The notes below the pieces were generated by a model. The model worked only from the letters and a program-made list of their open reading frames with translations. It was not told where the DNA came from and made no database searches. Below are positions 142-3,886 of a DNA stretch of 37,353 nucleotides, one piece after another; position 1 is the stretch's first letter, and the number at the start of each line of letters is the position of its first letter. Origin of the DNA: Nitrosopumilus sp. LS_AOA (GTDB lineage Archaea > Thermoproteota > Nitrososphaeria > Nitrososphaerales > Nitrosopumilaceae); NCBI GenBank assembly GCA_001543015.1, contig LFLC01000020.1, positions 1-37,353 on the forward strand. Reading direction: 5' to 3'. The position numbers and the translations under genes are program-made.

Positions 142-552
142 ATGAGTAAAGAAAATAAAAAAAATATCTACCAATCCATGTCTGCTGGATTTGATCAAAT
201 ACACGATAATGTTGAGCAATCAACACCAGAATTCATTCAATCACTTAGTAATCTTCAACAAGAATATTTCACTGCATGGAAAAATATTGTCTCCACTAAC
301 TTTTCAATGCAAGAAGAATATGCTAAAAAGATTGGTTCATCTTCTGAATCCACTGATATGGCAGAACAAACTATTCAAAAAATTACAAATGAGATTGTAA
401 ATAATTTCAAACTACAAAATAATATCATCAAAATATGGTTAGATACATCAAAACAAAATATTCATGCAATTAATGAAAATTCAACATCCTTTTCTGATGT
501 AAATAAAAAATTTATTGAATCATTATCAAATATGTGGAATGTGCCCGAATAA
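142..552 (+). CDS. Phasin-like small helical protein
   Basis: This is a 136-residue, almost entirely alpha-helical, polar protein with no signal peptide, membrane segment or cysteine. Its pattern (MSAGFDQI near residue 13, then a Phe/Trp-containing amphipathic helix around residues 30-50 and a second long helix after residue 75) resembles phasin-type proteins that coat polyhydroxyalkanoate granules. Some Thaumarchaeota carry PHA synthase genes, but none is present in this window, so the assignment rests on overall character only. The ATG follows a purine-rich stretch (AAAAAGGAAAATAAA) that could serve as a ribosome binding site. The gene appears to be monocistronic. It could equally be an unrelated helical protein. 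Confidence 0.45.
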   Translation: MSKENKKNIYQSMSAGFDQIHDNVEQSTPEFIQSLSNLQQEYFTAWKNIVSTNFSMQEEYAKKIGSSSESTDMAEQTIQKITNEIVNNFKLQNNIIKIWLDTSKQNIHAINENSTSFSDVNKKFIESLSNMWNVPE

Positions 553-2804: not shown

Positions 2805-2924
2805 AAATGGCATAAAATAATTAAACATAGAAACAAGTTTGATGCAACATATTCCACAATAAATTAAACAAATGTTCAGTCTAATATTGTTCTAATTTAT
2901 TATTCAATTTATAATATAATTTAA

Positions 2925-3021
2925 TGAAGACTGAAACAAACCTGCACCGCTAATTTAATCATGGTGTCACCTTATGGGATTTTACTCTATAGAGTAAAAC
3001 AGTTCAGGATTTCAGTCTTCA
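2925..3021 (+). ncRNA. Candidate structured RNA / leader element
   Basis: Twelve consecutive bases at 2925-2936 (TGAAGACTGAAA) are perfectly complementary to 3010-3021. Inside, CCTG (2941-2944) pairs with CAGG (3005-3008). This closes a junction with two hairpins: CACC (2945-2948) with GGTG (2963-2966), and an 8-bp TTTTACTC/GAGTAAAA hairpin (2980-2987 with 2992-2999) with a TATA loop. A TATA-like ATTTATTA lies roughly 30 bp before the outer stem, where an archaeal promoter would start an RNA. The element ends 45 bp before the phosphoribosyltransferase ATG, so it could be its leader, a free small RNA, or a DNA dyad. I do not recognise a known riboswitch class. The strand is inferred from the downstream gene. 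Confidence 0.45.
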
Positions 3022-3066
3022 ATATTTTTACTGAAATGTTATTAGATATTATGCGTAAACTATGGT

Positions 3067-3708
3067 ATGTTTAAGGATAGAATTCATGCTGGAAAATTAC
3101 TTGCTGAAAAACTAGTTGATGTTGTAAATGGTAGAAATTCTATTGTACTTGCAATCCCTAGAGGGGGGGTCATAATTGGTAATGAAGTTTCAAATAGAAT
3201 AGGCGCAGAACTTGATATTATAGTTTCAAAGAAAATAACTCCGCCTGATTCTTCAGAATTTGCAATAGGATCTATTGTTCATGATGGAACAATATACCTT
3301 GAACCGAACTGGAGAACATATTCAAATGATGAGCAGATTGCAAAAGAAATAAAAATTAAGACCCAAGAAGTTCAAAGAAGATTATTACAATATAGAGCAA
3401 AACCAAATTATAATTTTGATGCTAAGAAAACTGTAATTATTGTAGATGATGGTATGGCTACAGGTTGTACTGTTCAAGTAATTCTCAAATGGCTTGCAAA
3501 GCATGATGTCGGAGATATTATTTTAGCTGTTCCTGTAATGCCTGCTGTAACGTATGAGATTTTTAAAAAATTAATACAAAGAACAGTTGTACTTGAAATT
3601 CCTACTTTTTTTTCATCAGTAGGTCAGTTTTATGATAAATTTGACCAAGTATCTGATGAAAAAGTAATTCAAGTTTTACATGATTCCCAAATCTGGAAAT
3701 TGGAATGA
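3067..3708 (+). CDS. Predicted phosphoribosyltransferase (COG1926-like)
   Basis: A 213-residue type I phosphoribosyltransferase fold. The PRPP-binding loop is VIIVDDGMATGCT at residues 123-135. The N-terminal segment AIPRGGVIIGNEV (29-41) and DIIVSKKITPP (50-60) are typical of the family often annotated simply as predicted phosphoribosyltransferases. The hydrophobic strand pattern is complete and the length is normal. The base or substrate used is unknown for most members of this family, so a purine-salvage role should not be assumed. It starts at ATG, 45 bp after the foldable element at 2925-3021 and between two copies of the 22-bp dyad. Transcription therefore may be controlled by either element. 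Confidence 0.85.
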   Translation: MFKDRIHAGKLLAEKLVDVVNGRNSIVLAIPRGGVIIGNEVSNRIGAELDIIVSKKITPPDSSEFAIGSIVHDGTIYLEPNWRTYSNDEQIAKEIKIKTQEVQRRLLQYRAKPNYNFDAKKTVIIVDDGMATGCTVQVILKWLAKHDVGDIILAVPVMPAVTYEIFKKLIQRTVVLEIPTFFSSVGQFYDKFDQVSDEKVIQVLHDSQIWKLE

Positions 3709-3768
3709 GAAATTTGAGAAACTTATGGGATAATGAATAATAGAATTCATCAGTACGATCTAAATTTT

Positions 3769-3790
3769 CATAATCTTACTATGGATTACG
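3769..3790. repeat. 22-bp dyad repeat, copy 2
   Basis: CATAATC, the centre TTACTATG, then GATTACG. It is identical to copy 1 at 2783-2804 except for the second base. It lies between the phosphoribosyltransferase stop and the surface-protein start, about 97 bp before the latter. Confidence 0.6.
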
Positions 3791-3886
3791 CAAATAACAG
3801 ATATGAACAATTTTATGTGAAATTATAAGTTGTTCATAATTTAAACAAATATTATAAATTATTGTGATTCACAGAATTTGTAATCA

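Follow-up and report, generated by a model that had tools for sequence, protein, structure and literature searches.

A probable gene for a structured non-coding RNA in Nitrosopumilus sp. LS_AOA, a divergent copy of an RNA family predicted in the Nitrosopumilaceae

The element upstream of a phosphoribosyltransferase gene

The window analysed here is a stretch of 37,353 nt from contig LFLC01000020.1 of Nitrosopumilus sp. LS_AOA, and the positions below refer to it, on the + strand. Between 2925 and 3021 it contains a 97-nt fold closed by a perfect 12-bp outer helix, P1 (5′ arm TGAAGACTGAAA, 2925-2936; 3′ arm TTTCAGTCTTCA, 3010-3021), inside which lie a 4-bp helix (CCTG at 2941-2944 with CAGG at 3005-3008), a predicted 5-bp hairpin (2945-2966, pairing 2945-2949 with 2962-2966) and an 8-bp hairpin formed by the 20-bp palindrome TTTTACTCTATAGAGTAAAA (2980-2999). 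These helices and hairpins had been described in an earlier note on this DNA and were all found again, as was the ATG at 3067, 45 bases past the outer helix. This ATG starts a gene with a phosphoribosyltransferase domain (3067-3708; PF00156, E 7.8e-16), directly followed by the gene for a secreted-looking protein of 706 aa that carries Ycf48/BNR-like repeats in tandem (PF14870; 3887-6007). An inverted-repeat motif of 27-30 bp, CGTAATCTTACTATGGATTACG, flanks the element and the phosphoribosyltransferase gene (2781-2807 and 3765-3793), and near-identical copies of this motif occur in G107, G152, G161, G163, G171 and G186.

Folding of the 97-nt element led to an energy of -30.1 kcal/mol (z -4.7), equalled by none of 200 shuffles; the opposite strand (z -5.0) also beat all 200 shuffles, so that the strand is not given by folding alone. 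A perfect helix of this kind had been considered hard to get by chance. For the helix taken by itself this did not hold, as perfect 12-bp inverted repeats with a spacing of 40-120 nt occurred four times in the window against a mean of 1.2 in Markov-shuffled windows; a 20-bp perfect palindrome was expected 0.17 times per Markov-shuffled window. That the element is not a chance product nevertheless stands, because of the comparative data from related genomes.

Upstream of the element, a core promoter of GTTCTAA (BRE-like) followed by the TATA box TTTATTATT covers 2889-2904 and is the most conserved upstream block of the family described below, and a distal motif, ACAAATGTT (2868-2876), about 55 nt before the RNA, is conserved as ACA(A/G)A... 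in an alignment of 36 upstream sequences. The TATA-like element itself (2896-2904) begins 29 nt before the stem of the window copy. Its suggested suitability for a transcription start at the outer stem is borne out by the family: the start of the TTATTA-type motif precedes the first G of the stem by 28 nt in 30 of the 35 members scored, by 29 nt in four, the window copy included, and by 30 nt in one, so that all 35 have, at 28-30 nt, the own promoter with fixed spacing expected of a stand-alone ncRNA gene. A run of five U (3025-3029) is situated just past P1, where most members have a T-rich stretch, and transcription of the window RNA probably ends there. The body of the putative ncRNA gene, for which a covariance model and a leave-out profile speak (see below), is about 100 nt long (2925-3021, + strand) with a predicted start at or near 2925.

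Orthologues of the locus

A protein search with the phosphoribosyltransferase led to two MAG contigs, from NORP47 (L056) and NORP334 (L057), with proteins 83-89% identical. Both carry the same element upstream of the gene, and a near-identical gene order around the element was found in these two only. In both, the promoter region, the outer helix and the palindrome have persisted, and the interior between them is changed. One A to G change in an outer-helix arm of L057 leaves a G-U pair; the inner helix pairs as CUGC/GCAG in both orthologues and in a relative from genome G173, versus CCTG/CAGG in the window copy; and the region of the 2945-2966 hairpin, which is particular to the window copy, folds differently in the orthologues. 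As the palindromic hairpin is invariant among the three orthologues, it provides no covariation evidence. Its 3′ half is the counterpart of a conserved GUAAA strand of helix P3 in the wider family, and the palindrome is broken in L029 and L076. L057 (JAESUG010000043.1) is filed under a Robiginitomaculum MAG, yet its genes are archaeal and Nitrosopumilus-like, and the contig is probably mis-binned. A viral origin was dismissed, since a scan of viral contigs for the phosphoribosyltransferase gave no relative.

A family of RNAs in two classes

When 250 genomes of the taxonomic family were searched at the DNA level, one match was obtained in G173 (L029, 75% identity), ahead of an unrelated ORF, together with three shorter ones confined to the upstream region. 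All three of the latter bear a common stem, GAAGACTGA ... TCAGTCTTC, around a different interior. An exact pattern search then gave matches in seven genomes, with seven copies in G173 and at least three in G171, while a control pattern gave none. A covariance model built from 16 copies, window copy included (R1), matched in 27 genomes, all of one genus. Many of these matches are single-copy genes with an altered stem, GAAGACAGA ... TCTGTCTTC, in which both arms are changed together; these single-copy class-1 genes occupy a conserved site, convergent with a uracil-DNA glycosylase(-like) gene. A second model extended by 36 nt of promoter, also including the window copy (R2), matched in 47 of 95 genomes of the genus, its weaker matches representing a sister class (class 2) whose stems form a third set (GAAAGCUGAC, AAGCCAAC, GAAAGUCGAC).

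A third model, R3, was made from class-2 sequences only. It detected the RNA in 99 of the 250 Nitrosopumilaceae genomes, in 7 of 22 genera, and nothing in the other sampled families among 400 genomes of the order. Single-copy genes of class 1 were recovered by R3 (E 7e-8 to 3e-5) with no class-1 sequence as input, indicating that the two classes are homologous. A match in G159 (L112, E 0.08) inside a coding-like region was discarded as a false positive, and the matches in G034, which coincide in position on opposite strands (E 0.003 and 0.014), are regarded as doubtful. The genome of the window itself has one class-2 gene (C35:154935-155048; L202, L213), well preserved and 53 nt upstream of a DUF72 gene; its class-1 copy is the window copy, single in that genome at the DNA level.

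Covariation and sense strand

The earlier note had asked for compensatory changes in both arms, with a lack of conserved pairing in related genomes speaking against the element. Pairing turned out to be conserved by compensatory changes, as expected for a structured ncRNA gene. At one outer-helix pair, 18 sequences have U-A and 14 have A-U; at the innermost pair, 12 have G-C and 4 have A-U. Over 35 sequences, pairing in P1 as a whole amounts to 97.4%, and double changes occur in it. In MAFFT alignments, which are not fitted to the structure, class 1 showed 13 pairs with double changes, a number reached in 0 of 500 shuffles, and class 2 had 98.3% of cells paired, with 65 double-change cells against 18 in shuffles. 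In an alignment of 59 sequences made to R3, and thus fitted to the structure, 97.2% of cells were paired and 186 double-change cells were counted against 51 in shuffles. G-U pairs outnumber A-C mismatches by 106 to 4 in class 2 and by 23 to 5 in class-1 P1, indicating that the RNA strand of the window copy is the + strand, in agreement with the promoter.

The anatomy common to the family consists of a terminal helix P1 of 10-12 bp by which the molecule is closed, a small hairpin, CAAUAUCC.AUUG, toward the 5′ side, and P2/P3, a long hairpin whose asymmetric internal loop (UCGUGUUAC ... GUAAAGGA) is conserved. A pseudoknot between the loop of H1 (AUCC) and GGAU 3′ of P3 was rejected as it is broken in class 2; this pairing is attractive in class 2b (ACCC with GGGU in G027).

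Place of the window copy in the family

R1 gave the window copy 79.7 bits on the + strand and 23.7 bits on the - strand; as R1 and R2 contain the window copy, their scores for it are circular. An nhmmer profile was therefore rebuilt leaving out the window copy, L056, L057 and the G173 relative, and it matched window 2855-3032, promoter and RNA together, at E 1.2e-11, with E 1.3e-4 for the upstream part alone (2856-2910) and E 2.2e-4 for the RNA alone. With R3 the score was 18.3 bits (E 0.09), all of it from P1. The window copy is a divergent member of this predicted family.

Diverged inside as it is, the window copy could be decaying or changed in role. That the family is real but this copy a degenerate paralogue or pseudogene would fit its poorly kept P2/P3 core, the scoring of P1 alone by the class-2 model, and the well-preserved class-2 copy in the same genome. 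We consider this unlikely, however, as the two orthologues have accumulated many substitutions and still have promoter, P1 and hairpin intact, and the folding is strong in all three orthologues.

Neighbouring genes

The position of the element ahead of the phosphoribosyltransferase gene had implied a tie between the two, which was not borne out: a homologue of the gene was found in 1 of 36 other genomes of the genus sampled, split and of low identity, and most copies of the ncRNA lie beside other genes. A riboswitch of the phosphoribosyltransferase gene was rejected on the same grounds, the gene being nearly absent from the genus and the RNA occurring at other sites, and the gene is probably not a regulatory target of the RNA. 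In the family, the nearest downstream gene may be the phosphoribosyltransferase (three orthologues), DUF72, an agmatinase-like gene or a convergent gene, and in G171 and G173 several copies each share stem and upstream region and stand beside unrelated genes. These varied neighbours make a single cis target unlikely for the family. The steady link to one downstream gene family or pathway that would characterize a riboswitch was not found, with the partial exception of class 2 and DUF72 within core Nitrosopumilus.

This exception and the short distances bear on another reading, a cis-acting leader (riboswitch or attenuator), in which the downstream mRNA would begin with the RNA and termination at the U-run would depend on a ligand or protein. 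The phosphoribosyltransferase ATG is indeed 45-46 nt past the RNA in each of the three orthologues, a class-2 RNA is separated from a same-strand DUF72 gene by 33-53 nt in many genomes, and G146b is 59 nt before an agmatinase-like gene. On the other hand, these downstream genes are mutually unrelated, and most single-copy class-1 genes have no same-strand gene near and face a convergent one, uracil-DNA glycosylase-like or other. The T-rich stretch after the RNA could moreover serve a leaderless downstream gene as its TATA box and would then account for the short spacing; in the case of DUF72, a leaderless mRNA may start from a TATA box in this T-rich end. Taken together, a leader appears rather improbable, although for class 2 such a function is conceivable.

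Some further features were observed close to members of the family. Small proteins, either DUF6659 (PF20364, as tested in L124 and L125) or similar, adjoin ncRNA genes in L124, L125, L213 and L218. A protein of 136-141 aa with no Pfam match, phasin-like by eye only, is encoded near the ncRNA at window 142-552 and at L124:4654-5079. At L217:3936-3991 (G107), a sub-threshold match to a C/D-box sRNA (RF01126, E 0.011) lies next to a class-2 ncRNA, on the other strand.

Two readings of the locus at the level of DNA were also weighed. The 20-bp palindrome, identical in the three orthologues ahead of the gene, could be an operator for a dimeric regulator of the phosphoribosyltransferase gene, with the RNA fold incidental, but other family members have no such palindrome, yet P1 and promoter persist in them, and the covariation reflects selection on RNA pairing, leaving this very improbable. 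A MITE-like mobile element with the 12-bp arms as terminal inverted repeats, as the perfect inverted ends, the short length and the several copies in G173 and G171 might suggest, is hardly credible, since the window's own genome has one copy at the DNA level, conservation among family members is not confined between the repeats but extends about 70-90 nt upstream of the stem and hardly at all downstream, changes in the arms compensate each other and admit G-U but not A-C, and no clear target-site duplication was seen by eye at the window copy.

Comparison with known RNA classes

The earlier note had matched the element to no riboswitch class, in agreement with Rfam, which gave no match at gathering score for the window element or its relatives, only sub-threshold chance matches. 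The one above-threshold match in the window is a tRNA away from the element, and neither RNase P RNA, SRP RNA nor any other Rfam family exceeded its gathering threshold for the family. Conserved pairing, an own promoter, varied neighbours and the lack of an Rfam match together argue for a new family of structured ncRNAs, predicted to be independently transcribed and comprising at least two classes in the Nitrosopumilaceae, and against a riboswitch of the phosphoribosyltransferase gene.

Guide RNAs of the H/ACA and C/D types are likewise products of small structured archaeal RNA genes, but the RNAs described here show neither conserved boxes of these types nor a match in Rfam. A conserved ANA box 3′ of the stem, as in H/ACA RNAs, is absent (the flank is AAATTT in class 2 and TATTTT in most single-copy class-1 genes), and alignments and inspection gave no conserved RUGAUGA/CUGA box pair near the ends. 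Y RNAs are about 100 nt long, with the ends paired in one closing stem, a variable interior and a U-rich 3′ end, and the family resembles them in all these respects. Identity with Y RNAs was rejected owing to the absence of the Ro protein (TROVE, PF05731), found in 0 of 21 genomes searched, the window's own included; a control search over 14 known genomes matched one.

Tan1 (Thalassoarchaea ncRNA 1), an abundant orphan structured ncRNA of 229 nt from MG-II Euryarchaeota, was found among intergenic transcripts (PMC5069720). By description only, it is comparable as another orphan structured ncRNA of marine archaea, but differs in length, host lineage and transcript support, the Nitrosopumilaceae family being known from sequence alone. 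Haloferax sRNA132, the product of a stand-alone intergenic sRNA gene in haloarchaea, has a proposed trans-acting regulatory role (PMC6560208); it belongs to another lineage, and for the Nitrosopumilaceae RNA a function can only be inferred, with its structure conserved by covariation. No published description of the family was found in a literature search that covered subscription papers in part, so that an earlier mention is possible, and the literature searched contained very little on small RNAs of the Nitrosopumilus group beyond the common ones. The family appears to be new, within the known broad kind of lineage-specific structured sRNAs.

Proposed role and significance

From the comparison of genomes, homology of the RNAs, a conserved structure, fixed promoter spacing, the sense strand and independence of neighbouring genes have been established here. 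It is highly probable that a stand-alone gene occupies window 2925-3021, with its own promoter and a structured ncRNA of about 100 nt as its product, and that it is a divergent copy of the Nitrosopumilaceae family. Such a gene would be transcribed on the + strand from the archaeal promoter (TATA box at 2896-2904), with its start at the foot of the outer stem; the transcript would stop at the U-run 3025-3029. The RNA, presumably expressed, would work in trans: the closed P1 stem would protect its ends, the conserved hairpin and internal loop would bind a shared partner, protein or RNA, and specificity would come from the loops that vary among paralogues. That it acts as a regulatory sRNA in trans has about an even chance; a structural component of an RNP is a possible but doubtful role. 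More broadly, the two classes might, as a tentative proposal, be the RNA parts of an undescribed RNP system, or global sRNA regulators, throughout the Nitrosopumilaceae, with paralogue expansions such as the at least seven class-1 copies of G173 varying the loops while the scaffold stays constant.

Nitrosopumilus and its relatives rank with the most abundant ammonia oxidisers of the ocean. With strong covariation, a fixed promoter and an occurrence in nearly 100 genomes, the family provides defined genes that can be probed in cultured strains, and it would allow the re-annotation of existing ocean metatranscriptomes.
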